From: a virus
Length of the DNA: 20,859 nucleotides
IMG/VR virus record: IMGVR_UViG_3300025266_000054
Location: 1 to 20,859 of that record
Reading direction: 5' to 3' (one strand)
This document shows, in pieces, positions 3,291 through 20,859 of the stretch (its first letter is position 1; every line of letters starts with the position of its first letter). Made by a program: the position numbers and the translations under genes. The notes below the pieces were generated by a model. That model had not been told where the DNA came from. It searched no databases and saw only the letters and a list, made by a program, of their open reading frames with translations.

Positions 3291-4007
3291 CTACTGGGCA
3301 ACTTCTTCGTAAAGATGAATCGCTCGGCTTCGGTCGTACAGCCAAAAAACCAGAAGGTAACGATCCCCAGACTCGACGGCCAAACCACGGTGCAGATTTG
3401 TGAAGGAAGGGAAAATCAATGCGTGGCCTGTTGGCAGCGGCTTTAGCACGCCGTGGTTGTGAAACTCCGTTCCGCCGCCTACGTAATCGCCAGTGTTCAA
3501 AGGTATAACCACACTGATATCTGCAGACTCATCGTGATGCCAGGCGCCCTGCTGCTTATCTTTTAGGTTGTAATTGGCTATCTGTACGCTTGCAATTTCG
3601 TTCACTTGTCTCTGATACAAGCTATAAATAATAGGCGACAACACATTATGAACGAGGTGCCACATATTTCGGTATAGCTCGGGAACGTGTTGTTTGAGAA
3701 CGATCTCAGGAATTTGGCGCAGCTCATCCTCGCCAGCGTTGGGTTGAAAGCCAATCACCCTACGCATGTTGTCAATTTCTTCACATAACATCTTGCAGTA
3801 TTGCCGTCGAAACAATGGCACCCTGTAAATTTCTGGCCAGATCTTTTTAGTGAATTTTTGTATCGGCATCTTGCCCAGATTTTCGGTACCTTCCTTTGCG
3901 CGAAATTTCGCAATCGCAGGGATAGACTCTTGAACAGCTTTGTACACGGCTTGGTTAATATACCAATGCGACTGTAAAGATAGCATATAATTTTTTAGTG
4001 AATACAT
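3291..4007 (-). CDS. 2-oxoglutarate/Fe(II)-dependent oxygenase (prolyl 4-hydroxylase-like)
   Basis: A 238-residue protein whose C-terminal half is a double-stranded beta-helix dioxygenase. The iron triad is visible: H157-x-D159 in WHHDES, and H206 in NLHRG. R216 in GDRYLLVFW lies ten residues later, as expected for 2-oxoglutarate binding. A GGGTEFHNHG loop (177-186) lies between them. The first 140 residues are helical and not assigned. Such oxygenases are common in aquatic phages; substrates (protein, nucleic acid or small molecule) are usually unknown. It is the only minus-strand gene between plus-strand clusters and is divergent from the gene at 4061, with a shared 53-base control region. 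No good Shine-Dalgarno sequence lies ahead of the ATG at 4007 or of the alternative ATG at 3986. Its stop lies 10 bases from the convergent gene. Confidence 0.85.
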   Translation of the reverse strand: MYSLKNYMLSLQSHWYINQAVYKAVQESIPAIAKFRAKEGTENLGKMPIQKFTKKIWPEIYRVPLFRRQYCKMLCEEIDNMRRVIGFQPNAGEDELRQIPEIVLKQHVPELYRNMWHLVHNVLSPIIYSLYQRQVNEIASVQIANYNLKDKQQGAWHHDESADISVVIPLNTGDYVGGGTEFHNHGVLKPLPTGHALIFPSFTNLHRGLAVESGDRYLLVFWLYDRSRAIHLYEEVAQ

Positions 4008-7175: not shown

Positions 7176-8734
7176 CAAAACCTTCCCGTAACGTCAGTTG
7201 AGGTGGTTGATACCGATGTTGAGCCTGAGCCAAATCCTTGCCTCAACAACCGAGCTTCTCTGCTTTCCTCTCCTGCCAATTCTTCAATCTCAGGTTTTTC
7301 TGAGTCGGAAAACAGCGGATTTTGTTTATGCCATTGAGCTTGCCATCCCCCCATTGCAGCGGCAATCTTGGCATCATTGCCGGATTCAAAAACCTCATCA
7401 AACTCTCCGCTCAAAGTTGCCTCGTCGTAAGCTTCTTGAAAATCAATAGACTTTTGATTGATTCGGTTCAAATAACCAATCAGCCGATCATAACCGCCTT
7501 TTGTCATTGCTAAGCCGGGAGAAGATGCCAAGAACAAAGTCATTTCCGCATTAGAAATAGCCCCTTTGGTTTGCCCGATCAAGCCCATCGCTATTCTGGT
7601 GCCAAAAGATTTAACGAGCTGTTGACCCTCTATCGTCTCGGCATCCGCCCAACCAAGATCTACCATGAACTCTCTTAGCGGAAGCGTAACATTTGCGAAC
7701 CTCCCTCTCTCATCCGCATCCAGACCTGCAGATAAGCTTGAAGCAGTATCTAGCAAGTTTTTTTGAGTTCTTGCAAGCGCAGCTTCCTCTCCCCATTTGC
7801 TAACCGCCTTCGCAAACCCTTCTCCTCGTTTTTTGAGGAAACCAGAGGTCGTTGAGCCACCAACTTTAACAGAAGTGCCTCCACCGGTAACGGGGTAACC
7901 GCCGAGAGCTTGGTACTCTTGCTGTTTTGCCAAGTCCGTTTCGGCCGCCGCTCGCCTAATCTTCTTGCCTGTCGGCTGTCCTGCCTGGTCAAGCTCGGGT
8001 ATTTCCCAAGTAATATACTTGATTGTTTGGTTGCTCTTCTTTATCAACTCAATCTGAGCCTGTTGGATGTATTCAGTAGCCATCTTTTCATCTTCTCTTG
8101 CCATCTGAAAAGCTTGCAAAGCAATTTGGCGCTGAATATTTCTAGCTTCATCGGCATCTTTTCTGGTGTCTTTGTTAAATTGAGCAAAGCCTCTGGCTAT
8201 GCCACCATAAGGCCCGGCGGTAGGGTCAGAAGCAAGTATGCCCGCCCCTAAAGCTGAAGCAAGATCGTAAAAGTTTCTTCTCCTCGGAGCTGCCCCGAAT
8301 AGCGGTGCAAGCTTGCTTTTGTAGTCGTTAAATCGGTCGTCAAAAGTTTTTCTGCGGTCCTCTGAATCCTTAACCTCTTCCTCAAGATCCTTAATTTTAG
8401 CTGCAGTGTCGCTTGGTGGCGCAGGCTGATTTTTAGGAGGGCCGGACTTAGGACCTGTCTTCGCAGGCAGAAGCTGCAAGGCATTTTGGTCGAACTCAGG
8501 ACCTGTCTTCGCAGGCAGAAGCTGCAAGGCATTTTGGTCGAACTCAGGACCTGTCTGCGCAGGCTGAAGCCGACTTGTAAGAAGGCCGAACCCAGGACTA
8601 ACCTGCGCACCGCCCGGCGCACCGCCAATCATCTCCATGAACTCATCCCCAGATACATTTTGGGGTAAACCAGCGATGCCCCCAGCATTATAACCCTTGA
8701 TCTCTTTAAACATTTGCGGTCTTCCGATTGTCAT
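7175..8734 (-). CDS. Predicted virion protein with tandem 16-residue repeats
   Basis: A 519-residue protein of unknown family. The N-terminus carries FKEIKGYNAGGIAGLPQ (9-25), which contains the Gly-Gly motif seen in neighbouring proteins. Residues 61-92 are two exact copies of TGPEFDQNALQLLPAK, then a partial third. A Pro-rich hinge (97-108) and a charged coiled-coil-like segment (113-142) come next. The C-terminal half is helical, with Gly-rich loops (LGGYPVTGGGTS). It lies between two other giant virion genes and is probably an internal or tail-associated structural protein. A GAGGT sequence precedes the ATG. It is separated from the 720-residue gene by 33 bases, the largest gap of the operon. 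Confidence 0.6.
   Translation of the reverse strand: MTIGRPQMFKEIKGYNAGGIAGLPQNVSGDEFMEMIGGAPGGAQVSPGFGLLTSRLQPAQTGPEFDQNALQLLPAKTGPEFDQNALQLLPAKTGPKSGPPKNQPAPPSDTAAKIKDLEEEVKDSEDRRKTFDDRFNDYKSKLAPLFGAAPRRRNFYDLASALGAGILASDPTAGPYGGIARGFAQFNKDTRKDADEARNIQRQIALQAFQMAREDEKMATEYIQQAQIELIKKSNQTIKYITWEIPELDQAGQPTGKKIRRAAAETDLAKQQEYQALGGYPVTGGGTSVKVGGSTTSGFLKKRGEGFAKAVSKWGEEAALARTQKNLLDTASSLSAGLDADERGRFANVTLPLREFMVDLGWADAETIEGQQLVKSFGTRIAMGLIGQTKGAISNAEMTLFLASSPGLAMTKGGYDRLIGYLNRINQKSIDFQEAYDEATLSGEFDEVFESGNDAKIAAAMGGWQAQWHKQNPLFSDSEKPEIEELAGEESREARLLRQGFGSGSTSVSTTSTDVTGRF
8450..8570 (-). repeat. 48-bp in-frame tandem repeat (two exact copies plus partial third)
   Basis: Bases 8450-8497 and 8498-8545 are identical 48-mers; a third, diverged copy covers about 8546-8570. 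Each unit encodes 16 residues of the 519-residue virion protein. Exact identity of two copies points to a recent slippage or duplication. Confidence 0.9.
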
Positions 8735-8767
8735 TTAAACCTCAATTTAAAAGTTTCCCGTCCCTTA

Positions 8768-10930
8768 TTAATTGCTTAATTGGTTATTTGGGTTGTTGAA
8801 GCCACCCAAGCCCCCAAGCGTTGACAAGCCTACACCTAAACCAGCCTGAAGTGCTGACGGCTGGGGCGTGTAGGTAGTTTCAGCCGTCGATGTACCGGTC
8901 GGCGACAGGCCAACAAACGGCATCAATGCTTGGTATTGAGCAAGCGGTGCTTGCTGAGCTTGTAGCAAACCAGCTCGCTGTGCATCAAGCTCACGCTGAC
9001 GCTGCTGCTGATTTTGGCCACCAATGTTTTGTAAATGAGCCGCATCTTGCCCAGCCGCTTGTTGAGCTTGGCTACCAAGACCGCTCAAGAATCCGCCATA
9101 TCCTTGCTGCGCTCCCGCCATAGACTGACCCGCACCAAACTGTTGCTGACCAATCTGACCATATTGATTCGCCAAGGTGCCTGCTACGTTCATGCCCTGC
9201 TGCCCAGCCGCAGTTCTTGCTGCAGCATCCTGCTGGCCATAGCCAGCAAGTGTTTGGCCCAGGCCGGTTCCAGCACCGTACTGCTGTTGAGCTTGCTGAC
9301 CCATCAAACTTTGAAGACCTTGCTGCGCACCATACTGCTGTTGAGCTTGCTGACCCATTTGAGAACCAAGCTGCTGCTGAGCACCAAGCTGAGATTCGGC
9401 AGTCTGCTGGATTAAATTGCCGTATCCTTGCCCGGCCTGAAGCTTTTGCCCAGCCGCTTGCTGAACCTGACCAGCAACCTGCTGACCTGCGCCAAACCTT
9501 TGTTGGGCACCTTGCCCTAGCGTGTTTGCTAAGTTTGTTGAAGACGCCAACTCACTCCCAGCTCGCTGCTGCCGCATTCCTGCTAAATTCTGAGCAGCAC
9601 CATACTGCTGCTGACTTGCTTGGGCTGCTCGGTCAATTAAACCGCGCTCAGCGCCAAGCTCTTGTCCTGCCAAAGATGCCAAACCAGTTGACGCGGTTCT
9701 CTGAGCTTGCTTGGCTCGCTCATCTTCACCGATTGCCGTCTGCTGTGCCCTCTGAAAGCCTGCTGAGCGGATTCCGCCAACTTCTTTGGCCAATCCTCTG
9801 CCCATAGATTCCGCTCGCTCCTCAGCGCTTAGACGCGCTCTGGAGCCAAACGCAGATTCTCCGCCTGAAGAGATGTCTCGGGCATACTGAGCCATGTCTT
9901 GCTTGGCTAAACCTTCGCTCGCATCTCGAATCGACTGCTGAACCACTTGGTCTTCGTAGGGATCAAAATAATCAGAAGTTTTGTCGCCTATGTTAAAGCC
10001 ATCTTCAACGGTGTTCTGCAGTTGCGTGCGAGCATCGCCAAGCTGACCGCCAAACTCACTAGTAGCTGCAGATTCAGCGCCAAGCTGTCGCGTCGAATCT
10101 CGATTAAGCTGTGAGATACCACCCACCATGCCGGTTTCAGCAAGATCCAAACGCCCTCGCTGAGAAGCCGCAGCGGCTGACGCAAGCTCTTCGCTTTTAG
10201 ACAAACCGCGTGACAGGTCTTCTTTGCCGATCATCCCCATCCCGACTGCATCTGTTATGTCTTTCCCAAACTCGTCATAACTTCTTTGACCCTGCTGCCT
10301 GACTTTCGCCAAGTCCATGCCAAAATCTTCAGTCGCCCTTCGGCCTTGAGCAGCCTGCTGATCAAGCTGGTCAATGTACTGACCAGTGCTATCTTGGGCC
10401 ATTCCTGTAATGTCACTTAAATCACCGCGCAATCTGCTTTCTGCCTCAATGGCCCTAGCTCGACCTTGCTGATTTCCGCCAATCGCGTCAGTCATCGCTC
10501 GATCTCTTTGATCAAGCGCGAACCGTGATCCTTCCTGAATCTGTTGAAGAGCTTGCTGCGAAGCTAAAGCTTGACCGCCAATGCCGCTTTGAAGAGCGTC
10601 AATGCCTTGTTGGCCACGACTAATCGCTTCGTTGATAAACGGTTGCTGAACGCCTACAGCGCTTCTTGTCAACTCTTGCGCTCTAATTTGGTCCGGCGAA
10701 AGCCCTGCAATTTCTTGAGGAATGACAATCGGCCTGCCTTCTTCATCAAAAAAAGTTCTTTCTGCCGCCCGAAAAGCGCCAGGAAGAAAGCCGCCCTCAC
10801 CATCCTCACCGTACAAAAGCTGCTGAGTAATCGGGTCCATCATCTGATCTGTTCTTGTTACATTAGCAACGTAACCGCCTTCCTCAAATTTTCTTATTTG
10901 CTGGAGCTGGCCAGGCGTTAAAATACTCAT
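8768..10930 (-). CDS. Gln/Ala-rich repetitive virion protein
   Basis: A 720-residue protein. Its N-terminus has FEEGGYVANV (15-24), another Gly-Gly motif. The middle has FDPYEDQVVQQSIRD and the Gly/Ser block ISSGGESAFGSRARLS, a pattern I associate with large structural proteins of marine podoviruses. From about residue 420 to 660 it is an extreme Gln/Ala/Gly repeat zone (QQQYGA, QQQFGAGQ and similar), including an 18-residue repeat with MGQQAQQQYGA. The end is Gly/Leu-rich. It lacks recognisable enzyme motifs. Likely roles are a long helical tail, fibre or internal protein; this is inference. It overlaps the upstream gene by 4 bases (ATGA). Confidence 0.6.
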   Translation of the reverse strand: MSILTPGQLQQIRKFEEGGYVANVTRTDQMMDPITQQLLYGEDGEGGFLPGAFRAAERTFFDEEGRPIVIPQEIAGLSPDQIRAQELTRSAVGVQQPFINEAISRGQQGIDALQSGIGGQALASQQALQQIQEGSRFALDQRDRAMTDAIGGNQQGRARAIEAESRLRGDLSDITGMAQDSTGQYIDQLDQQAAQGRRATEDFGMDLAKVRQQGQRSYDEFGKDITDAVGMGMIGKEDLSRGLSKSEELASAAAASQRGRLDLAETGMVGGISQLNRDSTRQLGAESAATSEFGGQLGDARTQLQNTVEDGFNIGDKTSDYFDPYEDQVVQQSIRDASEGLAKQDMAQYARDISSGGESAFGSRARLSAEERAESMGRGLAKEVGGIRSAGFQRAQQTAIGEDERAKQAQRTASTGLASLAGQELGAERGLIDRAAQASQQQYGAAQNLAGMRQQRAGSELASSTNLANTLGQGAQQRFGAGQQVAGQVQQAAGQKLQAGQGYGNLIQQTAESQLGAQQQLGSQMGQQAQQQYGAQQGLQSLMGQQAQQQYGAGTGLGQTLAGYGQQDAAARTAAGQQGMNVAGTLANQYGQIGQQQFGAGQSMAGAQQGYGGFLSGLGSQAQQAAGQDAAHLQNIGGQNQQQRQRELDAQRAGLLQAQQAPLAQYQALMPFVGLSPTGTSTAETTYTPQPSALQAGLGVGLSTLGGLGGFNNPNNQLSN
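9273..9358 (-). repeat. 54-bp periodic repeat in the Gln-rich gene
   Basis: Blocks 9273-9304 and 9327-9358 differ by one base and are 54 bases apart, encoding an 18-residue period around MGQQAQQQYGA. Looser versions of the same motif fill roughly 9100-9620. Confidence 0.8.
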
Positions 10931-13900
10931 GCTGCGTTCACCCTCGATTTTGGTTTATCTGCGTATTCCTCAAAAAGTTCCATCATCTCATACAAGAGCT
11001 GAGTTCCCTTTTCCCGGTCCTCGGGACCGGTTGGTTTTAAGGTGATAATGCCGTTTTCGTTACCCAGCGAAAGTGAACCAGCTCCGCGTACTGCTCGGCC
11101 TGTCATCACGAATTCGCCATCGCTCAACATCGCCGGAACGTCATCGCTGGTTTCTGTTCCTTCGCCGTTTATTATTCCACTCTTTTCTTTAAAGTCTGCT
11201 GTGGAGACGTTGCCACCGGTAGCATAAGCCATCGGAACCATATTACCTACGCTCTCCCTGCCAGAGCCAAACGAAGGGCGCCTACTGCTTAAATTCATTA
11301 GTGAAGGAGGCATAACCGCCATGTGGTTCTGCTTTATTGGCGAAGGCATTGATCCGGGACCCATGGTCTGCAAATTCATTAGTTCAGGAGGCATAAATCC
11401 GTCACCCTGGCGCTGCTTTATTGGCGAAGGCATTGATCCGGGACCCATGGTCTGATTCAGTAGTTTAAGCGCAGAAGGTTTACCAGAGCCAAAGCTTTCT
11501 TCAGCACCGAAGTGCGCACGTTCAGCTTGGTCTACTAAGTCCACAAATTCTGTCACTTTTGACTGCATTTCTTGGGATTGCGGGTCAGTGTATGTCTGGT
11601 TTAAGTAAGTGCTATAACCATTCAAGGGCGAAAGCTGCGCTTGATTCATTTGTGTTGGTTGACCAAACTGTTGCTGCATGTTTGGTGGGAACATACTGGC
11701 TTTGCGCATCGGCATTACTGCGCCGCCGTTGCGCATTCCAACCACAGGATTAATTCCACCAAAACCGCCTTCGCCACCTATACCGGAATTGGCAAGAGCC
11801 GCAGCAATTTCTTCGCCACCTATACCGGGATTGGCAAGAACCGCAGGAGTAGGGTTGTCGAGATCAGATAAACGTATTTCAGTACCATCGGCCCTAGTTC
11901 CAACCACAGGATTAATTCCACCATTTCCTTCATCGGTTATCCCGCCAACGTCAATGTTGGACGGGCCAACCACCCCGCCATTGCCGATGAGTGGGCCAAA
12001 TCCTTGCTGGTCATACGCAGCGGATTGTCCATGCTTACGCCCTTCATACTGACCGTAGATTTTCCAATGAGTCTCAGGGTCAAAGCCTGGAATGTCCCGC
12101 GCTTCTTGTTGTAAATCTGGGTACAACGATAGATAAGCCGCTCCGTCAAAAGCTGGGCGTGGCAAGGGGTTTGTTGGCGTTGGATTACCAGGGTTTGTTG
12201 GCGTTGGATCACCAGGATTTGTTGGCGTTGGATCACCGGAATCCGAAGGTTTTTTCCTGCCGCCACTTAACGTAGGCATTCCCGTTGCCATCATTCCAAA
12301 GTCTCTTGGATCTGGCGGTGCAACACCCGCAGCTTCTGCATCTCGTTTGGCCAACTGATAACCACCGTATTTGCTCATGGTCATTGCCGGTGTTAATTTA
12401 ACGCCTTTACGATTTTTCGCTTCGTCATAAGCAAGTTTGGCAAGAACCGCAGCAACTCCTGCGCCGCCAAGACCACTCAGATTTAAACCACCACCACCAG
12501 ATTGGTCAGCTTCGCCAACAGTGAAAAATTTGAGAATGGATTTTAGAAACGAAGGAGCTTGGTTAGTCTCCGCTTCTTGGGCTTCTGCTTGTAAACCAAG
12601 TATTTGCAATATTTGGGGCGCGTTCTTCCCCGCCTGCCTCATTTCTGCTACTTCCTGCGCTATCGCGGGGTTGCCTTCTCCTTCTGTAGCAATTATTTCT
12701 GCAATTAGTCTCTCAGCCTCAAGTAAATTCTCTGGAGCTTTATAGTAATCCGTGATTCCCACACTATCGCCGATGCCGCCAAGAATATCTCCTATCTTGC
12801 CGAACCTACCAACTTTGTCAGATCCTGTACCAGTAAAAATATCTCCTAGGGAGCCAAGTCCGCCAGATTGGTCAGCTCCGCCACCAGTAAAAAGATCTCC
12901 TAGAGATCCAAAACTGCCAGAATTGTCAGCTCCTTTACCTTTAACTAGGCTGCCGATGCCCTCGAAGAAACCACCACCCTCTGCCGCCTTAGCACCCTTC
13001 GCTGCTATATCTGTAATATTTTGACCAATACTACCGCCAACAGCGTTGGGTCCGCCGAGCGTCAAAAGTTGCAGCGGACTTGCATTGCCTTTTGCAACGT
13101 CATAAACCGTCCACGCTTTAGCAGCAATCGCGGCAAACGGTTGCCAAGGACCGGGAATAAATTGAGCGATTTTTACCAGCGGTTTAATGACCTGCTTGAC
13201 CACTTTTTTTAGACTTTTGGCCGTTTTTTTCCAAAAACCGAACTCTTCCAAACCGGTAATCGGATTAAGAGAAGCAATGCCAACACCAACAGTCATTCGT
13301 CGAGGGTCGATATCCATTTCGTTGAATTTTGCTTCAATCAAACTTTCAAATTTTTCGTCTTCAAAAGCTTCTGGCGGCAAGATGACTTCACCCGGCCTCA
13401 AATGCGCAAGTGCAGTATCTTCTCCGCGACCAGCCTGAGTTAGCTCAACTGCCATTTGGCCTAGCGGAGCATTAGCCCCAACCTCGGCTGCTTCTGCTAA
13501 GTGCAGGTACTGATCTCGTTCTATTGGGTCTTTTGTCTGCGAAGCCTGCATCAGCATTTCTTCTATCGCAGATTCAATAGCACCGTTCGGATCTGTTTCA
13601 GCCTGGGCTTCGGCTTGAGCCTCCATCGTCTGAATCATCATCTCTTCTTGACTGACTTCACCGCCATCAGCCTTTCTCAAAGCTGTTATCCCCGAATTAA
13701 TCGCGTCAGTCGCCATGCCGACCTTCATGGCTGTCGGGTGAAATTTAGAAGCGTTCACAAAGGCCTCTGGGAGGCTTTTTGATTGAGTAAGCGCACGAAC
13801 ATCGTCAACAAAGTTTTTGTTCAAATCCAAAAGCGTTTTTTTGATAAAAGGAATTTTATCCAAAGAAATAGATGCCAGCCTGTCCATCAAGGAAGCGCCT

Positions 13901-14175
13901 GCTCCGAGATCTGGTAGATAAGGCTCGATTTTTAACAAATCTTCTTCAGACTTAATTCCAGATTGATCTACTATCATTTTTATCCGGTCTGACGTAGACA
14001 AGCTTGCCCCACCTTCTTTTTGATCCATTAGAGCGTTTATGCTAGATGTAAGATCACTTTTGTCAATCGAAGGAACTTTCATCGGGTCGAAACCAACTTC
14101 ACCGCCAGCAGCCATCGCAGGAAGCGGCTGGTCACCCATCAGGTTCTGAATTCGTTGTAGTAGTTCTGGATTCAT
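10927..14175 (-). CDS. Giant modular virion protein with several repeat blocks
   Basis: A 1082-residue protein. Features in order: Gly-Gly motif MAAGGEVGFD (21-30); a second one, KADGGEVSQ (168-176); Ala/Glu/Gln helix (178-200); LRPGEVILPPEAFE (259-272); hydrophobic/basic helix after FGFWKK; 18-residue repeats GADxSG..GSLGD(L/I)FTG (415-468); Pro/Thr linker of three GDPTPTNP-like octamers (647-670); a small domain FDGAAYLSLYPDLQ...HWKIYGQYEGR (676-713); GGINPVVG repeats (752 and 806); RNGGAVMP (815-822); two TMGPGSMPSPIKQ repeats (909-949); and YATGGNVSTADF plus SDDVPAMLSDGEFVM (1010-1024). The last motif also occurs in phage tape-measure-like proteins. An internal or tail-associated structural role is likely. 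It starts within the stop of the 103-residue gene (ATGA). Confidence 0.65.
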   Translation of the reverse strand: MNPELLQRIQNLMGDQPLPAMAAGGEVGFDPMKVPSIDKSDLTSSINALMDQKEGGASLSTSDRIKMIVDQSGIKSEEDLLKIEPYLPDLGAGASLMDRLASISLDKIPFIKKTLLDLNKNFVDDVRALTQSKSLPEAFVNASKFHPTAMKVGMATDAINSGITALRKADGGEVSQEEMMIQTMEAQAEAQAETDPNGAIESAIEEMLMQASQTKDPIERDQYLHLAEAAEVGANAPLGQMAVELTQAGRGEDTALAHLRPGEVILPPEAFEDEKFESLIEAKFNEMDIDPRRMTVGVGIASLNPITGLEEFGFWKKTAKSLKKVVKQVIKPLVKIAQFIPGPWQPFAAIAAKAWTVYDVAKGNASPLQLLTLGGPNAVGGSIGQNITDIAAKGAKAAEGGGFFEGIGSLVKGKGADNSGSFGSLGDLFTGGGADQSGGLGSLGDIFTGTGSDKVGRFGKIGDILGGIGDSVGITDYYKAPENLLEAERLIAEIIATEGEGNPAIAQEVAEMRQAGKNAPQILQILGLQAEAQEAETNQAPSFLKSILKFFTVGEADQSGGGGLNLSGLGGAGVAAVLAKLAYDEAKNRKGVKLTPAMTMSKYGGYQLAKRDAEAAGVAPPDPRDFGMMATGMPTLSGGRKKPSDSGDPTPTNPGDPTPTNPGNPTPTNPLPRPAFDGAAYLSLYPDLQQEARDIPGFDPETHWKIYGQYEGRKHGQSAAYDQQGFGPLIGNGGVVGPSNIDVGGITDEGNGGINPVVGTRADGTEIRLSDLDNPTPAVLANPGIGGEEIAAALANSGIGGEGGFGGINPVVGMRNGGAVMPMRKASMFPPNMQQQFGQPTQMNQAQLSPLNGYSTYLNQTYTDPQSQEMQSKVTEFVDLVDQAERAHFGAEESFGSGKPSALKLLNQTMGPGSMPSPIKQRQGDGFMPPELMNLQTMGPGSMPSPIKQNHMAVMPPSLMNLSSRRPSFGSGRESVGNMVPMAYATGGNVSTADFKEKSGIINGEGTETSDDVPAMLSDGEFVMTGRAVRGAGSLSLGNENGIITLKPTGPEDREKGTQLLYEMMELFEEYADKPKSRVNAA
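11291..11454 (-). repeat. 84-bp spaced direct repeat with exact 42-bp core
   Basis: 11329-11370 and 11413-11454 are identical 42-mers. Flanking AAATTCATTAGT...CAGGAGGCATAA-type segments at about 11291 and 11372 are also repeated. Encoded core: TMGPGSMPSPIKQ in the 1082-residue protein. Confidence 0.9.
11736..11923 (-). repeat. Direct repeats encoding GGINPVVG and PGIGGE
   Basis: The 26-mers at 11736-11761 and 11898-11923 are identical. Between them, CGCCACCTATACCGG occurs twice, giving NSGIGGE/NPGIGGE in the protein. Confidence 0.8.
12166..12239 (-). repeat. 24-bp tandem repeat encoding a Pro/Thr linker
   Basis: Three near-identical 24-base units encode G(D/N)PTPTNP octamers, forming a flexible linker directly in front of the small YLSLYPDL domain. 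Confidence 0.9.
12772..12933 (-). repeat. Three 54-bp imperfect repeats in the 1082-residue gene
   Basis: Residues 415, 433 and 451 each start an 18-residue unit of the form G(A/S)D..G..G..GD(L/I)(F/L). The ADQSGG element appears again near residue 555. Confidence 0.75.
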
Positions 14176-14483
14176 GGTGTGCTCACAGTAAGGTTGCCTA
14201 CCGCACTGGTTGTTTGAACCCCGGTAGGATACGTTTGGTGCTGATACAAATCTCTCAACTGATTACCGTCAAACGCTTGATGGATGGAAGTTGTAGAATT
14301 AAATATTATCGCACCTGTTGCGAATTGTAACTTAGAAATTTGGTCAGCGTTAAAGTGTGGCGATATCGTAATATCCACAGCGCCAAGGTTAATTTCAAGA
14401 ATCCGAACCAGGCGATTGTAAGTGTCGCTTGTAACGGACTCGCCAATCGAAGAAGGAAGGCGCGTTTCAAGCAGCCTGCTCAT
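14172..14483 (-). CDS. Small predicted tail protein
   Basis: A 103-residue protein. The N-terminal half is helical (ESVTSDTYNRLVRILEINLG, 14-33). The C-terminal half contains GAIIFNSTTSIHQAFDGNQL (57-76), which resembles short beta motifs (G-x-x-x-x-N-S/T-T...Q.F/Y-G/D) often found in tail fibre or tail-tip proteins. It sits between the gp10-like tail protein and the giant 1082-residue gene, joined to both by 4-base ATGA overlaps. Family not recognised; a structural tail role is inferred from place and motif. Confidence 0.55.
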   Translation of the reverse strand: MSRLLETRLPSSIGESVTSDTYNRLVRILEINLGAVDITISPHFNADQISKLQFATGAIIFNSTTSIHQAFDGNQLRDLYQHQTYPTGVQTTSAVGNLTVSTP

Positions 14484-16378
14484 CCACGTCTACCGCTCTG
14501 CTGCAAGTCAACTCTGGTCGAACCAAGCCGCCATTTGTAACCTTTCTGATCTACTGTAGCGTTATCATCATCGCTTTCAAAGCGGAAGACTACCTGTCGC
14601 GCTCTTGTGCGCAAACTCGTGAACGTGCTGGTAGGCGTGACCTTAGTGGTTGAATCGGTGATTAACGACTGACCGGGAAAGTTCCTACGTTTAACAACGA
14701 TATTCATAGCAGGGCTATTGCTAATGCCTGCATCCGTCACAAAAGCCATGTCGGGTATCATTTTTTTCATGAACACGTCATATTCGCCTGCAGAGATGTC
14801 GATATCTGCAGATTCAATATAAACGCCAGCCATAGGCTCAAGCCCGTCATCATAACCAGTCTCATGGTTGTACAACAGACTCTGACCAGAAGATTGAGCT
14901 GCTGCAATGGGCAGATCTTCAATACCCGCATCAAGCCAGCCGTATCGCCTCATGTTGCCAATTGCCCAAGTCTGCTCAAGATAGTTATAAGTGACGTACC
15001 GGCTAATCTCGCCAGTCCCGTCCTCAATTGACGGGTAAAAAAACCAGATCTCGTTATACCGAGAATTAATGCTCATAAAGGATTTAAAAGCTTGGTTCAA
15101 GTCGATATCGTTAAAGACGTATTCTTGGACTGTGCAAGGCAGTCGCTGCACAGAACCATTGTAAAAGTTAAAGCCTGTCTTAGAAGCAAAAAACACGCCA
15201 CTTGGCGAGTTTGCCGCAGCATTTGGCGACAGCAGACCAGCGCCTTCGTTCACTAAGTTAACAGCAAAGGTAAGGGGCGGACCAATGAAAGTCATTGAAT
15301 AGAGGGACGTGTCAGTCCAGACCAATATTTCTTGCCGAGATTTTAAACCGCCGACAATAAAAGAACCTGAAGATAACCGAACGTCACCCGCGCTGTTCGT
15401 TGTAGTTGGCTCAAAATCAAGCTCATCCTCTGCTGACGAAAATACAACAAGCATAGGGTCAATCGCGCCCGTTCTTGCTCCGCTAGAAACAGGATCAGCA
15501 CCCAAAACCACAAGATGGCGATCTGTCTCGGACGTAATCACCTGCAAACCAACCGTAGGAACTTGCCTAGCGCCTGATCGTCCCGCCAAGCTAACAGCTC
15601 TAACAGACACGCCTGAATTTTCAATCCACTCGTAAATACCAGCGCCGCGAGGGTTGATAATCAAGTTTTCGCCAAAGTTATCGTGAGTCCAGATTCTTAG
15701 CTGATTAATTGACGAAATTGTTGATGCAGAACCCCATCCGCCTGCGCCCCATGTTCCAACACCCCAGCCGCTACTGCCGACATAAACGTCAAGACCGACA
15801 TTAATCTGATATGCGCCTACTACACTAGAACCACCATTGGCTGTGTCTGAACCGTTTGCAGCAATCGTGTTTCCTGCGGCGTCTTTTGCTGTGATCTGAT
15901 ATGTGTTCACCCCGGTAACCAGCAATATCTGGTACTCTTGATTTAGCACCGCAGGAATAATTACTCCGCCCAAGCTCGCCGCGCCGCTAAACGTGACAAA
16001 ATCATTTGTCACAGCACCGTGAGCAGTGTCGGTTATGGTAATCGTTGAGAAACCGTTTGACGCGGCAAAGGTTACATCGCCAGCAGAGGTTGTCACTCGG
16101 ATAGGGGTTATATCGTTGTATGCGTTACCTTCTTCTACGTAATACTTCCAAGTAGTCCCAAGTCCTAAGAATTTGGTTCCGCTCAAAGAAATCCACGAAT
16201 GAAGTGCTCGGCAGAGACCTAGAAAGTATTGAGTGCCAAGCTGCGCCCAGCCACCAATCTTCTCAACTCTACCTTTTCTGAATCGTATTAGGTTGCCATC
16301 GACCCAGCCGCCTTGAGCGCTGTAGTCGGTAGCCTCCTTATTAATTCCTGGCTGGAAATCTATTTCTTGCAAAGGCAT
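14480..16378 (-). CDS. P22 gp10-like tail (stabilisation/hub) protein
   Basis: A 632-residue beta-rich protein. The N-terminus, FQPGINKEATDYSAQGGW (8-25) followed by DGNLIRFRKGRVEKIGGW, is typical of podovirus tail proteins related to P22 gp10, which extend and close the portal channel. A Thr/Ala/Val-rich insert (about 95-185; for example TITDTAHGAVTNDFVTFSG) looks like an added Ig-like or beta-sandwich domain. Later segments such as GVFFASKTGFNFYNGSVQRL and NEIWFFYPS fit a beta-propeller-like body. AAAGG lies shortly before the ATG. The upstream gene ends 6 bases before it. Confidence 0.7.
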   Translation of the reverse strand: MPLQEIDFQPGINKEATDYSAQGGWVDGNLIRFRKGRVEKIGGWAQLGTQYFLGLCRALHSWISLSGTKFLGLGTTWKYYVEEGNAYNDITPIRVTTSAGDVTFAASNGFSTITITDTAHGAVTNDFVTFSGAASLGGVIIPAVLNQEYQILLVTGVNTYQITAKDAAGNTIAANGSDTANGGSSVVGAYQINVGLDVYVGSSGWGVGTWGAGGWGSASTISSINQLRIWTHDNFGENLIINPRGAGIYEWIENSGVSVRAVSLAGRSGARQVPTVGLQVITSETDRHLVVLGADPVSSGARTGAIDPMLVVFSSAEDELDFEPTTTNSAGDVRLSSGSFIVGGLKSRQEILVWTDTSLYSMTFIGPPLTFAVNLVNEGAGLLSPNAAANSPSGVFFASKTGFNFYNGSVQRLPCTVQEYVFNDIDLNQAFKSFMSINSRYNEIWFFYPSIEDGTGEISRYVTYNYLEQTWAIGNMRRYGWLDAGIEDLPIAAAQSSGQSLLYNHETGYDDGLEPMAGVYIESADIDISAGEYDVFMKKMIPDMAFVTDAGISNSPAMNIVVKRRNFPGQSLITDSTTKVTPTSTFTSLRTRARQVVFRFESDDDNATVDQKGYKWRLGSTRVDLQQSGRRG

Positions 16379-16384
16379 TCGCCT

Positions 16385-16810
16385 TTACGCCAATCTAATA
16401 ATAGCGCCGGTCGCCGTTGGGGCCGGAAAAACTACAGTGAAATCACCAGCAGTGCTGGTTTTATTGCCACCGAAGTCAATGGCTGCAACCGCCTTGTCAC
16501 CCTGCGTGTCGTTATATATCAAGCAAGAACGTGCGGTGATTGTGGCTGTAGAAAATGTCAAATCGCTAAAATCACACACAGCAGTAGTGCCTGTTGCGAA
16601 AGGGGTCACGTTTGTCAGCGCTGAACCGCCTGCAGTATAGTTCGTGCCAGACGCCTGCCCAGTCGTAACAAAAACAGTAGTACCCGCCCCAAGCGTTGCG
16701 CTAGAGGTATAAAGCGCCAACTTAAATGAGTTAGCGCCGTTGGTAAAATTGTGGGTTCCAGTAAGCAGTTGCTGCTTAAAAGACGTGCATATTGCAGAAG
16801 TAGTAGCCAT
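16385..16810 (-). CDS. Conserved beta-rich phage structural protein
   Basis: A 141-residue protein almost free of charged residues, rich in Thr, Ala, Gly and Ser, with many short alternating hydrophobic strands. Examples are SFKLALYTSSATLGAGTTVF (28-47) and FTVVFPAPTATGAIIRLA at the C-terminus (124-141). This type of protein, with the KLALYTSSATL motif, is frequent beside tail genes in aquatic phages. Its likely role is a tail or capsid-surface protein; I cannot choose between them. A well-placed AAGGAG 7 bases before the ATG supports the start. Confidence 0.6.
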   Translation of the reverse strand: MATTSAICTSFKQQLLTGTHNFTNGANSFKLALYTSSATLGAGTTVFVTTGQASGTNYTAGGSALTNVTPFATGTTAVCDFSDLTFSTATITARSCLIYNDTQGDKAVAAIDFGGNKTSTAGDFTVVFPAPTATGAIIRLA

Positions 16811-16811
16811 G

Positions 16812-17102
16812 TCACAGCTCCTTGATAATTTTCGCCATTGCCTCGTGACCTTGCTGGCGCAGTTTGTTTGAAATTGTCACTCGGTCTGATCGGATAGAGT
16901 TCTTCATCCCCTGCAATATTACTTGATAAACGTGACTTCTGAAAGCCTCAGCTTGCTGGCGAATATGAGGCGCTGCAGTCTCGCTAATGCCCACGATCTT
17001 ATTGGTGACCTGCTCCGCCCAAAACTCAGGATCATGACCCTTGTTGTGCGTAGTAGCAACCGTGATGTTGCCAAGCTGAAAGCCAATGTCGTCGCTCATC
17101 AT
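16812..17102 (-). CDS. Conserved hypothetical protein, helical
   Basis: A 96-residue protein. A short beta-like N-terminus, FQLGNITVATTHNKGHDPEF (8-27), is followed by a mostly helical, basic C-terminus (residues 28-96) ending in QQGHEAMAKIIKEL. No family is recognised. Located between the glycosyltransferase-like gene and the beta-rich gene and overlapping the former by 4 bases (ATGA), it is probably a small morphogenesis protein. Two tandem ATG codons (17100-17102 and 17097-17099) could serve as start; AAAGG directly precedes the first. Confidence 0.55.
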   Translation of the reverse strand: MMSDDIGFQLGNITVATTHNKGHDPEFWAEQVTNKIVGISETAAPHIRQQAEAFRSHVYQVILQGMKNSIRSDRVTISNKLRQQGHEAMAKIIKEL

Positions 17103-17818
17103 CCTTTGTACGGCTCCGGCGATTTTGGTATATCTACAGTTTCCAAATTATGCTTTTCGATCATTTCAGCCATCTTAGACTTAGGAAAGACGTGCCACTC
17201 ACCATTTTGAGGAATCGTGACTAAAGGATCGTCAAGACGGTGATAGCCATAAAGGCGCTCAGCCGCACCAACATTGCTGTCGAGAAGCGTTGATCTTGGA
17301 GACGTGCCAATGCCAATGTTATTTTCCATGCACTTACTAATCCAAAACTCAACGCAAGCGCGGCCAGCTTCTGCAAAATGAATGTTGTGCGCGTAGCTGA
17401 AATCTAAACCAAATAAATCAATGTGAGCCACTCGGTTCCAGTAGGCAAAGCCTAACGCGTAGGCGACTGTCGTATTGAAGTAAGCGCATTTAGCATCACC
17501 CATAACTTCAGCTAAAGGGTACTCAACCAAGGCGGGAACTCGATCATCGAGTTCACAAGTGTAAATTGGTTTATCAAAAGTCGGCAGCAATCGACGCATA
17601 ACGTCTGTTTGATTACCCGCATCTTGGGTGTCTAAATACCTGCTTGCAGGATCCATCATGAAAACTCGATCACAAGCAAAAACCGATAAGGCGCTGTTAA
17701 TAACCCAGATCTCATCCCACTGCTTGCTGTTTTCCATCCCAATAACAAAGTCAATCTGGCTTGCGCCTAGACCAATCAATGCTACTCTTTTTCCTCGAAG
17801 ACTCTCAATCCTCTCCAT
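17099..17818 (-). CDS. Rossmann-fold, glycosyltransferase-like protein (DUF115/sialyltransferase-like)
   Basis: A 239-residue protein. It opens with a Rossmann-type nucleotide-binding start, RVALIGLGASQIDF (11-24), followed by EIWVINSALSVFACDRVFMMDP and, further on, VAHIDLFGLDFSY. The arrangement of G-x-G-x-S, W-x-x-N and L-x-G-x-D-F is reminiscent of DUF115/MptE-like and GT42 sialyltransferase-like enzymes, and of proteins labelled morphogenetic in phages. Donor and acceptor are unknown. The longer reading from TTG at 17821 adds one residue; I prefer ATG 17818, which overlaps the preceding TGA by one base. Embedded in the tail module, it might modify a virion or cell-surface component (inference). 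Confidence 0.55.
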   Translation of the reverse strand: MERIESLRGKRVALIGLGASQIDFVIGMENSKQWDEIWVINSALSVFACDRVFMMDPASRYLDTQDAGNQTDVMRRLLPTFDKPIYTCELDDRVPALVEYPLAEVMGDAKCAYFNTTVAYALGFAYWNRVAHIDLFGLDFSYAHNIHFAEAGRACVEFWISKCMENNIGIGTSPRSTLLDSNVGAAERLYGYHRLDDPLVTIPQNGEWHVFPKSKMAEMIEKHNLETVDIPKSPEPYKG

Positions 17819-18465
17819 CAACTCACCCCTGTCCGCAATAGATCGTAACGATATTCATCTCGCGTATCACGACCCTCGGACAAGTTTTTCATTCTTCCGA
17901 TTGCTGACATGAAACGCTGTTCCATATTGGCAATCACATCAGGAGCTTCTTTCAAGAAGATTGCAGCTTCGGCCAACGTACCGTATAGCAAAGCATCTGG
18001 ATATTCAGTGCTTAACAACGTGGTTCCGCTATCTGCGCCAGAAGTAAGTGAAGCAGGCTCATGCAAATAATGCAGCTCTACGCTGTAATTTGCATCAGGG
18101 ACTGGCGACAACTCAAATGCTGCATCGTCAAAGTTACTGTAATACTTTGGGCGACCTCTGCTGGAGACTGAGGGGTCATACTCCTTCAAGAACGAAGGAT
18201 GCTTCAATAGCAAATAGTAGTACGTCCCGTTGTCAATGACGGCCAGCGAAAACGGCGAGTAAAAATCAGATGGCGTTGCCAAGAACCGATTGTTATGCGA
18301 AGTCGTCGCTGTGACATTCTTACGCTGCTCAGATAACTGAACAAGCTTAAAGATGCGAGTCTCTGACTCCTGGATAAACGTGTCTAGGTTATCGTTGAAA
18401 GTTGTTTCATCAACCTGCAAATAGTCCTGAATGGCGTTCTTCAAAGTCGCTAAAGTAAAACTCAT
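17818..18465 (-). CDS. Phage head-tail adaptor protein (DUF6682/gp6-like)
   Basis: A 215-residue protein. The N-terminal helical part, TLATLKNAIQDYLQ (4-17) then TFIQESETRIFKLVQL (29-44), matches the start of phage adaptor proteins that bind under the portal. A beta region follows (FLATPSDFYSPFSLAVIDNG). A segment with YPDALLYGTLAEAAIFLK, then a C-terminal helix, completes the usual adaptor form. It is one of two adaptor-like genes here. The start overlaps the preceding gene by 4 bases, and GGAGG lies 10 bases upstream. Confidence 0.65.
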   Translation of the reverse strand: MSFTLATLKNAIQDYLQVDETTFNDNLDTFIQESETRIFKLVQLSEQRKNVTATTSHNNRFLATPSDFYSPFSLAVIDNGTYYYLLLKHPSFLKEYDPSVSSRGRPKYYSNFDDAAFELSPVPDANYSVELHYLHEPASLTSGADSGTTLLSTEYPDALLYGTLAEAAIFLKEAPDVIANMEQRFMSAIGRMKNLSEGRDTRDEYRYDLLRTGVS

Positions 18466-18776
18466 GATGTGGTTACCTCCACAGTTCCAACATTACAGGA
18501 TATTGCAAATGTTTGCAATTGTGTGCCTAGTATACCATCACCGGAATTGGTGTAGACCGTAAAGAAATTGTTATCATTCGCCTGGTCAGGTCTTGGATCT
18601 TTCAAAGCCTGCGGATCAATAGGTGTTGGCTTAGGCATTAACTGAGGCTCTTTTGGGGACCACTGATCTGGTCCGACCAAGTAACCATCCCAAGTCTTTT
18701 TCATGTCGCGCAAGCGGTATCTGAAACCCGAAATGTCACAGATGCCCCAAGCGTTTTTGTTCGATGCAAAGGCCAC
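18462..18776 (-). CDS. Small phage protein with apparently degenerate zinc-ribbon motif
   Basis: A 104-residue protein beginning at GTG (18774-18776), two bases after the adaptor stop. It contains GICDISGFRYRLRDMKKTWD (11-30) and then LVGPDQWSPKEPQL (33-46). I recall related phage proteins in which the matching positions form two CxxC zinc knuckles (CDxCGFRY...VCxxC...PQ). Here only C13 remains; the others are S16, G35 and Q38. Residues 56-64 (DPQALKDPR) and a beta-rich tail follow. Role unknown, conserved in tail modules. The family recollection was not verified. Confidence 0.6.
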   Translation of the reverse strand: MAFASNKNAWGICDISGFRYRLRDMKKTWDGYLVGPDQWSPKEPQLMPKPTPIDPQALKDPRPDQANDNNFFTVYTNSGDGILGTQLQTFAISCNVGTVEVTTS

Positions 18777-18778
18777 GG

Positions 18779-19474
18779 CTAAGCGATGTTATAGCTGCGT
18801 AAATCAGGGGCGATTCTAAAGCTCGCTCGCTCCTCATCTTGGCTCATTGCTCGCGTAAATTCCTCTTCGTAGAGCTGCTTGAGCATTTGAACCTTTTCTG
18901 GAGCCTTTTTTAGCGCCAGGTAATACGATAAACCAGCCGTCAGGCACGGGTAAAATCGGAAAGGCATCTGCAAAGAATTAGCACCACCACCAGCATCATC
19001 CATGCGAGTCAGGACGTTAACATACAGTGTGTAGGTGTTGTTTTTGTCAGGCTGCGGCCAAACTGTCACGGTTGGAGACAACTGCTTGTCAACGAAGAAT
19101 TGGTTAGGCTTGCCTGTCGTTGTTTTAGTCGCCAAGTGCGAGTATTCCGCACGGCTCATTCGACTCAGCGGAATGTCAGTATTAGTGCCCTGAAATTCTT
19201 CTCGGACAAAAACGTCAAGCACGTCAATTGCCGCTGTTGAATCTGTCGGATCAAGATTGTAAGTGATCGTGCCAGTCAGCATCGGGATTGCGTTTTGCTT
19301 AATTGTCCACTGATTTAAACCACGGTTAGCCCACTCTGCCAGCATTAGGTTGAGTGAGCGTGTAGCAGTTCGCAAGTCGTAACCAGTACGCAATTCGATT
19401 CCGCATCTCTCAAACGCTTCTTCAATATACTCGGCTACATCAGGCTCAAAACTCTTAGTCCCGCTAAAAGCCAT
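18779..19474 (-). CDS. P22 gp4-like tail accessory/adaptor protein
   Basis: A 231-residue protein. Helical N-terminus with DVAEYIEEAFERCG (12-25) and a LRTATRSLNLMLAEWANRG-type helix (38-56), followed by a beta region (AIPMLTGTITYNLDP) and a C-terminal PFRFYPCLTAGLSYYLALKK segment. This order fits podovirus tail accessory proteins of the gp4 type, which attach to the portal. It has a strong AAGGAGA ribosome site 7 bases before the ATG. Lies just downstream of the 99-residue gene after a 12-base gap. A second adaptor-like gene is at 17818-18465. Confidence 0.65.
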   Translation of the reverse strand: MAFSGTKSFEPDVAEYIEEAFERCGIELRTGYDLRTATRSLNLMLAEWANRGLNQWTIKQNAIPMLTGTITYNLDPTDSTAAIDVLDVFVREEFQGTNTDIPLSRMSRAEYSHLATKTTTGKPNQFFVDKQLSPTVTVWPQPDKNNTYTLYVNVLTRMDDAGGGANSLQMPFRFYPCLTAGLSYYLALKKAPEKVQMLKQLYEEEFTRAMSQDEERASFRIAPDLRSYNIA

Positions 19475-19486
19475 TTAATTTCTCCT

Positions 19487-19786
19487 TCATCGACCTGTTC
19501 TGCCGCCGGTAGTTTTGGGTCGAGGCGGCTCGTTCCTAGACTTATCACTCATTGCATCGCTCTTAATTCCAAGCGCATCAATAATGCTTTCGTTCATTCC
19601 TTGGAACCGTCTCGGCCCCATTCGCTCAGCGTCAGGATTTGGCCCCATCTCAGGCGGCGCTAACCTACCTCCGCCGGGCATTTTAATTTCTCTGCCACCG
19701 CTCATACCAACTGGTTTAGCAGCTCCGCCCATTTGCTTTTTAGTGACTCTACCGTATAGGCCAGAGTTGCCGTTATTCCTCTTCAT
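19487..19786 (-). CDS. Small basic Gly/Pro-rich phage protein
   Basis: A 99-residue low-complexity protein. It begins with MKRNNGNSGLYGRVTKKQMG and then has GGAAKP, several GG pairs, and a Pro/Arg-rich remainder. A short helical part, NESIIDALGIKSDAM (65-79), is the only ordered-looking stretch. NSGLYGRV is nearly the same as the NSGLFGRR and KSGLFGRR ends of two neighbouring genes. It overlaps the 235-residue gene by 14 bases and has GAGGA 8 bases before its ATG. Family not recognised. Confidence 0.5.
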   Translation of the reverse strand: MKRNNGNSGLYGRVTKKQMGGAAKPVGMSGGREIKMPGGGRLAPPEMGPNPDAERMGPRRFQGMNESIIDALGIKSDAMSDKSRNEPPRPKTTGGRTGR

Positions 19787-20480
19787 CGTCTGAGTCCTCT
19801 TCGTTCGTTTCGGCGTACAAGTTGTCGAAAACCTGATTCACATCCAGCGTGTAGTCTAAATCAGATTTACTATAATGAATATGCTGACTAGGCTTGAAAT
19901 CTGGCGCACCATCTCCTGTTTCAAACCAAGCCGGGTGCGTTACCCGTACACGATTATTAGGCAATGCGACAATATTCCCGGTCCACTTACCTGCGTCAAG
20001 AAGCTCTAAAACATGCGACTGTTTATGTTGGGCTGGGTCATCAGCAATTTCATTTTCTGAATAATCCACAGTGAAATAGTATTTTGCAGGATAAAATTCG
20101 CCATCAATCTTAGCGAGCCAAGGAGAAGGAGTGCAGCGATCAAGAACGTAAACAGCGTGGCAATGAGAGCTGCAATCCCAAGGTTGAGCAGCCCAGACAG
20201 GCATTGGTTCAGGCCATTTATCAAGCGGTGTGTCAGCGACAAGCCCTGAGATCGGCATTCTCGCCCACATCGCTCCGCCGTGCGTGTTTTGCTCGCCGTC
20301 ATCGTCATACGTCTCAGCTCCAGTAAAAATCATTTGAAATGATAAGCACCGGGTTGGCATCGTGGTTACAGCAATCGCCATCGCGTGAATAAACTCGCCA
20401 TGATACTTCTCATGGTTATGCGTATACTCTTTTCGAACCCAGCATTTAAAATTCGGTATATTGCTCTGAAGATAAGCCAC
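19773..20480 (-). CDS. Conserved hypothetical phage protein, Cys/His-containing, acidic C-terminus
   Basis: A 235-residue protein. Conserved-looking segments are EKYHGEFIHAMAIAVTTMP (24-42), HGGAMWARMPISGLVADTP (67-85), QPWDCSSHCHAVYVLDRC (99-116) and ADDPAQHKQSHVLELLDAG. It ends in an acidic run, EEDSDDEEE. I recall related proteins in the capsid/tail region of many marine podoviruses, without known function. The cluster C103, H106, C107, H108 and C116 could bind metal (inference). The start is GTG at 20478-20480, overlapping the upstream TAG by one base (TAGTG), with a weak ribosome site; the next in-frame Met is at residue 34, too late to keep the conserved start. Confidence 0.6.
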   Translation of the reverse strand: MAYLQSNIPNFKCWVRKEYTHNHEKYHGEFIHAMAIAVTTMPTRCLSFQMIFTGAETYDDDGEQNTHGGAMWARMPISGLVADTPLDKWPEPMPVWAAQPWDCSSHCHAVYVLDRCTPSPWLAKIDGEFYPAKYYFTVDYSENEIADDPAQHKQSHVLELLDAGKWTGNIVALPNNRVRVTHPAWFETGDGAPDFKPSQHIHYSKSDLDYTLDVNQVFDNLYAETNEEDSDDEEE

Positions 20481-20740
20481 TATCTTCGACCAAACAATCC
20501 GCTCTTGCTTGATGAAGGCTTTCTCATTCCGCCCTTAGCTCCGCCCTTAGCTCCGCCTTTAGTCTTCATTGCAGCGCCGCCTTTTGCGTAACCTTTAGTC
20601 TTCATTGCAGCCCCGCCTTTTGCGTAACCTTTAGTCTTCATTGCTGCTCCGCCCATTTTCATACCGCTTGTTTTTTTAGCAGGTTTAGCCTTGCCCACTG
20701 GAGCGCCGCCTTTTTTGTAACCTTTTGCTTTCATCATCAT
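20480..20740 (-). CDS. Lys/Gly-rich repeat protein (KGYAKGGAAMKT)
   Basis: An 86-residue, highly basic, low-complexity protein. Two copies of the 12-residue unit KGYAKGGAAMKT sit in the centre, with degenerate forms (KGYKKGGAPVG; KMGGAAMKT; KGGAKGG) on either side. It ends in SSSKSGLFGRR. It has three tandem ATG starts after GGGAG. The Lys-rich Gly-Gly composition suggests binding to nucleic acid or to an acidic protein surface, such as the acidic tail of the adjacent 235-residue gene; this is inference. It overlaps the upstream stop (ATGA). Confidence 0.6.
   Translation of the reverse strand: MMMKAKGYKKGGAPVGKAKPAKKTSGMKMGGAAMKTKGYAKGGAAMKTKGYAKGGAAMKTKGGAKGGAKGGMRKPSSSKSGLFGRR
20540..20655 (-). 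repeat. 36-bp in-frame tandem repeats
   Basis: Two near-identical 36-base units (starting at about 20578 and 20614), flanked by shorter related copies, encode the KGYAKGGAAMKT units of the 86-residue protein. Confidence 0.85.
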
Positions 20741-20859
20741 CGTCTCCCAAACAAGCCGGAATTACCCGGTCTCTTATTGATTGCTCCGCCTTTTGCAGCG
20801 AATGTTTTAACCATTGTAGGCTTACCGCCCACACCTTGCCGCTTAGATCTTTTCCTGCT
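20737..20859 (-). CDS. Small basic protein ending in NSGLFGRR (partial, start beyond right edge)
   Basis: An open frame of 40 codons plus TGA (20737-20739) continues past the right edge. It is Lys/Arg-rich, with the Gly-Gly segments GVGGKP and FAAKGGAINKR, and ends in NSGLFGRR. The same C-terminal SGLFGRR is found in the next gene, and NSGLYGRV occurs at the start of the 99-residue gene, so these are related in part. It overlaps the next start by 3 bases (ATGA). The start and full length cannot be seen. Confidence 0.55.
   Translation of the reverse strand, partial: SRKRSKRQGVGGKPTMVKTFAAKGGAINKRPGNSGLFGRR

Follow-up and report, generated by a model that had tools for sequence, protein, structure and literature searches.

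The window (the whole stretch of 20,859 bases that we analysed) is a viral contig from IMG/VR. Replication genes lie on its left side, and a run of virion-side genes lies on the minus strand. The run includes p632, the SU10-type adaptors p231 and p215, and four large proteins (p1082, p720, p519, and p905). The order of these genes (p632, p103, p1082, p720, p519, p905) matches the layout of P22-like ejection genes. We found no capsid gene in the window; in relatives, it lies past those genes that make up the window's right end. Between the replication and virion genes, at 3291-4007, is a 2OG-Fe(II) oxygenase-like gene (phrog_61), which several relatives keep. The main genes discussed below are:

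7175..8734, minus strand: p519, largely helical, with an ejection-protein-like placement; no match in Pfam or PHROGs
8768..10930, minus strand: p720, a large virion-side protein rich in Gln, Ala, and Gly; a 32-member family in related contigs
14480..16378, minus strand: p632, stabilization-protein-like (phrog_3287); the anchor gene for finding relatives
19487..19786, minus strand: p99, a small Gly-rich basic protein with NSGLYGR near its N-terminus and with QMGGAAKP
20480..20740, minus strand: p86, a small basic protein with a KAKGYKKGGAP start, GYAKGG repeats, and a C-terminal SGLFGRR
20741..20859, minus strand: a basic head-module gene (3' end only), containing AAKGGAINK and a C-terminal NSGLFGR

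Neither p519, p720, nor p905 matched any family in Pfam or PHROGs. The predicted fold of p519 had no significant match in the PDB, and tblastn of p519 and p720 against a phage collection found nothing. We describe these proteins through the window's relatives, which we found via p632 (80 loci). Thirteen loci were extended to whole contigs, and the proteins were then grouped into families. (Gene starts were picked by a script, and the contigs overlap in ancestry.) The relatives include the pelagiphages HTVC023P and HTVC027P, the roseophages CRP-901 and CRP-902, and phage DSL-LC04, in which a DNA transfer protein is annotated at the end of the corresponding gene run.

Gly-Gly peptides in the window and its relatives

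The original prediction was that a short Gly-Gly peptide recurs in most of the large or basic virion proteins. All of the listed peptides are present where it had placed them:

p519, minus strand: GYNAGGIAG, residues 14-22
p720, minus strand: FEEGGYVAN, residues 15-23
p1082, minus strand: four Gly-Gly peptides, residues 21-29, 168-176, 815-823, and 984-992
p99, minus strand: QMGGAAKP, residues 18-25
p86, minus strand: three Gly-Gly peptides, residues 6-15, 37-46, and 49-58
20799-20773, minus strand: AAKGGAINK in the partial gene

In the window's virion-side proteins, the loose pattern of the original prediction occurs 6 times, compared to 1.7 expected from composition-matched shuffles (P = 0.0065). 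With the same control, [FYWM]xxGG occurs 16 times (6.9 expected, P = 0.001) and [FYW]xxGG.[AVI] occurs 6 times (0.9 expected). The remaining genes of the window have no excess of these patterns over shuffles. Taken singly, p86 is the only significant protein in the window (P = 0.004); p519, p720, and p1082 are not. So, the case for the Gly-Gly peptide rests on the relatives.

Among the relatives, we counted [FYWM]xxGG within the first 45 amino acids and used shuffled N-termini as the control. The peptide is present in 12 of 21 members of the p519 family (0.9 expected), 17 of 31 of the p720 family (2.1 expected), 21 of 66 of the p1082 family (2.5 expected), and all 5 proteins of the p86 type (0.5 expected). 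Of the copies in the p519 family, 12 of 16 fall inside the first 25 residues, and of those in the p720 family, 19 of 32. At the -3 position from the first glycine, Tyr, Phe, and Met are enriched 3-4 fold. Thus, N-terminal [FYWM]xxGG is conserved in the p519, p720, and p1082 families and in the p86 type: for all four, it is more frequent than in shuffles and it is present in orthologues.

Beyond these groups, p905, both adaptors, and p104 have no N-terminal [FYWM]xxGG, and the aromatic form of the N-terminal GG in p632 is no more common than in shuffles. If the p632, p1082, p720, and p519 families are set aside, the virion-module proteins together have 13 copies, with 11.9 expected. Because of this lack of excess, "most" virion proteins was too broad, and we reject the Gly-Gly peptide as a mark of all virion proteins.

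Protein p1082 has several copies, some of which lie far from its N-terminus:

14089..14175, minus strand: N-terminus MNPELLQRIQNLMGDQPLPAMAAGGEVGF, a leader that ends in GG and lacks the MAIxRxQ tag (described below)
13648..13674, minus strand: KADGGEVSQ, a candidate ancestral N-terminal GG site
11707..11733, minus strand: RNGGAVMPM, kept in close orthologues
11059..11250, minus strand: residues 976-1039, a C-terminal tape-measure-like segment (phrog_13338, 17300, 23013, 6090, and 5448)

KADGGEVSQ is probably the ancestral N-terminal GG site, moved by an insertion of about 145 residues. In the orthologues (with N-termini such as MDAMLQSRIQNLIGDDMPMGLEQYAEGGEVD), we find GGEVSQ at residue 27 (in L003, which has a single copy), GGEVSR at residue 89 (L004), and GGEVSQ at residue 144 (L002). 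By this comparison, KADGGEVSQ and MAAGGEVGF look like one N-terminal site that was doubled around the insertion. Close orthologues conserve MRxGG[AE]VMP and YAxGGNV. The tape-measure-like segment holds YATGGNVST and VPAMLSDGEFV. So although all four copies in p1082 are present, several of the internal ones have other explanations (a site split by an insertion, or the tape-measure segment).

In the p86 type, the start KAKGYxxGGAP is conserved on differing bodies. The C-terminus of the partial gene at 20741..20859 is the same as in one protein family of the relatives (family 12). A different sequence, [NSK][SC]GL[FY]GR(R), ends or nearly ends several small basic proteins, unrelated to each other, in the head module of the relatives, and it also lies near the N-terminus of p99; it is perhaps a second tag. 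Its sites in the window are:

20503-20483, minus strand: [NSK][SC]GL[FY]GR(R)
20763-20743, minus strand: [NSK][SC]GL[FY]GR(R)
19768-19748, minus strand: [NSK][SC]GL[FY]GR(R)

An N-terminal tag that resembles the start of the capsid protein

In p519 and p720, the Gly-Gly is at the end of a leader:

8678..8734, minus strand: p519 leader MTIGRPQMFKEIKGYNAGG, residues 1-19; a MAIxRxQ-type tag (residues 1-12), then YxxGG
10874..10930, minus strand: p720 leader MSILTPGQLQQIRKFEEGG, residues 1-19; gap-free alignment with the p519 leader

The first 12 residues are the best-conserved part of the p519 family (56% mean pairwise identity, versus 17-29% past the leader). In the predicted structure of p519, residues 1-28 score under 50 in pLDDT and include a short helix, at residues 8-16, that ends ahead of the Gly-Gly. 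This very low confidence is consistent with a leader that is flexible and exposed. Five orthologues of p519 lack the tag (G003, L010, L034, L035, and L075), and AG replaces GG in two p519-type proteins (G008 and L144). In the p720 family, G18 and G19 are almost invariant (ten members). Farther along p519, at about residues 56-97 (8444-8569 in the window), is a tandem repeat, made of two full copies of PA[QK]TGPEFDQNALQL and one partial, where both the conservation and the confidence of the prediction are low. Also, a protein from outside the main virion run of a relative (G001; L082:12754-17103, 1449 aa) starts with MPRFDDIDIFGYNLGGSVG and has GYNxGG near its N-terminus.

Within the window, the likeness between the two leaders is weak (6/21 identical). 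We built a position-specific scoring matrix (PSSM) from the p519-family leaders alone and scanned all windows of 1,287 other proteins, with three rounds of shuffling. N-termini from the p720 family scored 20.8 and 19.4 at residue 1, versus a shuffled maximum of 15.2. The N-terminus of the major capsid protein, MAISRAQLAKELEPGLNSLFG, scored 12.8, which is under the best shuffled score, yet it recurs in each capsid protein. The matrix also flagged the N-termini of some DUF5872-type basic proteins. We rejected homology by duplication, as BLAST found no significant similarity between p519 and p720. A search with tblastn of the leader peptides gave either no matches or LUZ24-type matches at E of about 6, which we judged to be chance.

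By the tag, we mean residues 1-12 of the p519 leader, MAIxRxQ[MIL]xx[QE]I. Tag-like starts are found in the major capsid protein of the relatives and in 66 distinct small basic proteins. In the contigs selected by p632, which were chosen without use of the tag, a relaxed pattern has 29 matches in the called ORFs, and all 29 are at residue 1, with no internal matches in 302,367 positions. Across 163 contigs, about half of which were selected by the tag, it begins 134 ORFs, versus 0 after shuffling. The 134 ORFs fall into 21 clusters by their bodies, with no match between clusters at E of 1e-3.

We also scanned IMG/VR with a degenerate DNA pattern for MAIxRxQ[..]xxQI and found at least 79 new loci. 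Among the 79 loci listed, each has an ORF that starts at the tag, with at most 30 open codons upstream, and 74 carry further virion proteins of this clade. About 9 of these ORFs are p519 orthologues, and most of the others encode small basic proteins (33-115 residues) with many different tails. A permuted pattern, run on the whole collection, matched 9 stretches, most of them within longer frames (terminase-like or other), and gave no set comparable to the tagged proteins. In bacterial genomes, most of the matches listed are internal segments from a single family of actinobacterial genes. A few of those listed are N-terminal, among them a p519 orthologue from a Maricaulis bin and, from a gammaproteobacterial bin, a small basic protein.

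The capsid protein of the relatives matches Phage_capsid_4 and Mu-like gpT in Pfam and, in this clade, starts with MAI[SA]R[SA]QLxKEL. Residues 1-21 are its best-conserved part (89% mean pairwise identity, versus 63-73%). Capsid and tagged proteins from the same contig have 5-8 of the 12 residues in common. Where the residues are identical, the codons in the capsid gene and the tagged gene differ in 84 of 156 cases (54%). With about half of the codons differing, the constraint appears to be on the protein, not the DNA. For the same reason, and because the upstream sequences differ, we rejected a DNA-level cause, such as a promoter or ribosome site common to gene starts; for the p519/p720 gene pairs of three relatives, the codon comparison was mixed. 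Residue 6 also covaries: among 17 non-redundant pairs of a tagged protein and a capsid protein, it is identical in 11, compared to 5.5 expected (permutation P = 0.0008, uncorrected for phylogeny). The matches are Ala with Ala or Ser with Ser, and none of the 17 pairs has Ala with Ser.

The 66 small tagged proteins have a median length of 43 amino acids and a net charge of at least +10 (median +13), and their tag is mostly without GG. In contigs that hold both genes, the small tagged gene is 1.7-6.6 kb from the capsid gene, and in the neighbourhoods that we read, it sits between the capsid and adaptor genes. No small protein in the window itself has the tag. Among cultured relatives, 6 have a tag-like capsid start, and HTVC023P is the only one with a clear small tagged protein, gp50, at 32318-32458 of MN698239; HTVC027P gp82 is a loose match. 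The putative scaffold of HTVC023P is gp37, which is acidic. Five phages have a related capsid protein with another N-terminus (Alcaligenes phage QDWS535, Caulobacter phage RW, and Manatee Spring MW202785, MW202675, and MW202796), and the stretches that we examined from them have no tagged ORF. Some basic proteins in the head module of the relatives match DUF5872 (L081:7615-7977) or DUF6321 (L232:6021-6338) in Pfam; the literature mention that we found for these domains concerns an algal virus.

Possible routes into the head

The likeness of the tag to the capsid start suggests an address label for loading into the capsid. From their gene positions and charge, we assume that the tagged proteins are internal to the head. 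We put the chances at about even that the p519 leader, together with its diverged counterpart in p720, is a tag for capsid targeting, likely recruited by the scaffold. A more specific proposal, which we hold somewhat more tentatively, is that the tag is a portable imitation of the capsid N-arm of the same phage, is kept in step with it, and is loaded into the head by the scaffold. We propose this on the basis of P22, the closest working model, and of T4. In P22, the hook of the scaffold binds to the N-arm of the coat protein (PMC12005531), and the ejection proteins need the scaffold to enter the procapsid (PMC4992974). In T4, a short N-terminal sequence puts diverse internal proteins into the precursor scaffolding core (PMC3012670).

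Under this proposal, the first 12 residues of the capsid protein would have been copied or imitated at the N-termini of head-bound proteins: p519, more weakly p720, and the tiny, very basic proteins. While the procapsid assembles, the partner of the capsid N-arm, most likely the scaffolding protein, would also bind the tag, and the tagged proteins would therefore be enclosed ahead of DNA packaging. The aromatic-x-x-Gly-Gly that closes the leader may act as a helix stop and as a flexible joint to the body; it could also be a second contact or a trimming site. The original suggestion of a docking tag for virion assembly thus gains support for the N-terminal 12-mer, and mainly not for Gly-Gly itself. 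Aromatic-x-x-Gly-Gly follows the 12-mer in p519 and p720 and occurs elsewhere (p1082 and p86) without it.

We considered other explanations. One, which seems unlikely, is that the tag binds the inner capsid lattice at the N-arm sites instead of the scaffold, and that the basic tails neutralise the packaged DNA. This would account for the tag's resemblance to the capsid protein's own N-terminus and for the strongly basic bodies. But we found no solved structure for the capsid protein by sequence, its AlphaFold model (pLDDT of 44) is too poor for judging binding to the inner surface, and sequence cannot tell lattice binding from scaffold binding.

It is similarly doubtful that the leaders are propeptides, with about 18-20 residues cut off near the Gly-Gly by a host or phage protease after assembly. 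This is what happens to P22 gp7, from which the host's OpdA removes the 20 N-terminal residues (according to the record's annotation). The cut, between YPE and KGGKGG, is close to [FY]xxGG, the leaders are alike in length (19 residues here), and conservation differs between the leader and the stretch behind it. But there is no common residue after the GG, which is AG in G008, G011, and L144, we recognised no protease among the head-module genes that we scanned, and the small proteins carry the tag mostly without a GG.

We consider it very improbable that the tag is a functionless relic, left when p519 and the small basic genes took the start of the capsid gene for good expression. Repeated capture of the 5' end would put one start region on many bodies, but where residues are identical, about half of the codons are different, the upstream sequences differ, and divergent families retain the amino acids, with the tag as the best-conserved part of p519. 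Finally, mere low complexity of Gly-rich, basic proteins would fit the lack of excess in the remaining virion-module families and the lack of significance for p519, p720, and p1082 singly, but we dismiss it as the cause of the Gly-Gly recurrence, as orthologues repeat both the position at the N-terminus and the aromatic residue or Met at -3 more often than shuffles do, and both glycines are almost invariant in the p720 family.

We return to the proposal of a capsid-targeting tag. The choice of internal proteins for packaging is understood in few phages. If the proposal is true, then sequence alone could be used to list probable internal proteins in a marine group that is mostly uncultured, and the tag would explain many orphan genes of 33-60 residues, which annotation can skip. 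It would also give a cargo-loading rule that is testable in a cultured pelagiphage, HTVC023P.

Comparison with known systems

We found no description of the tag in the open-access literature, which was covered in part, so an earlier description is possible. The tape-measure C-terminal segment (phrog_17300, 23013, 6090, and 5448) accounts for YATGGNVST alone and not for the N-terminal copies.

The leaders have some likeness to the double-glycine leaders of bacteriocins (the substrates of C39 peptidases), with a helix-like stretch and then Gly-Gly near residue 19. However, the consensus for C39 leaders has hydrophobic residues at -4, -7, and -12 before the GG, whereas the leaders described here have an aromatic residue at -5 and Ile or Val at -8 from the second glycine. 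Also, the bearers here are large virion-side proteins, and none of the matches in the window is to a C39 peptidase or transporter gene.

The P22 ejection proteins (gp7, gp20, and gp16) have a gene neighbourhood similar to that of the proteins described here, after a stabilization-type protein (gp10 or p632), and gp7 has a 20-residue leader ahead of KGGKGG. But they have no family match to p519, p720, or p905, no PDB fold significantly matches p519, and they have no common N-terminal sequence among themselves, unlike the tagged proteins. In the P22 coat and scaffold, the coat N-terminus is also in play, as a binding site for the scaffold (PMC12005531). The P22 contact is between acidic coat residues and Arg or Lys of the hook, while here the common part is the sequence MAIxRxQ.

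The capsid targeting sequence (CTS) of T4 is removed by the prohead protease. It differs in sequence from the tag, which instead resembles the N-terminus of the major capsid protein. The phage clades are unrelated, and the head genes are not T4-like, as the capsid protein of the relatives is of the Phage_capsid_4 / Mu-like gpT type. What the two systems have in common is a short conserved N-terminal sequence on non-homologous proteins, which here, in the contigs chosen without use of the tag, is found at residue 1 only, and which sits on 21 clusters of bodies.
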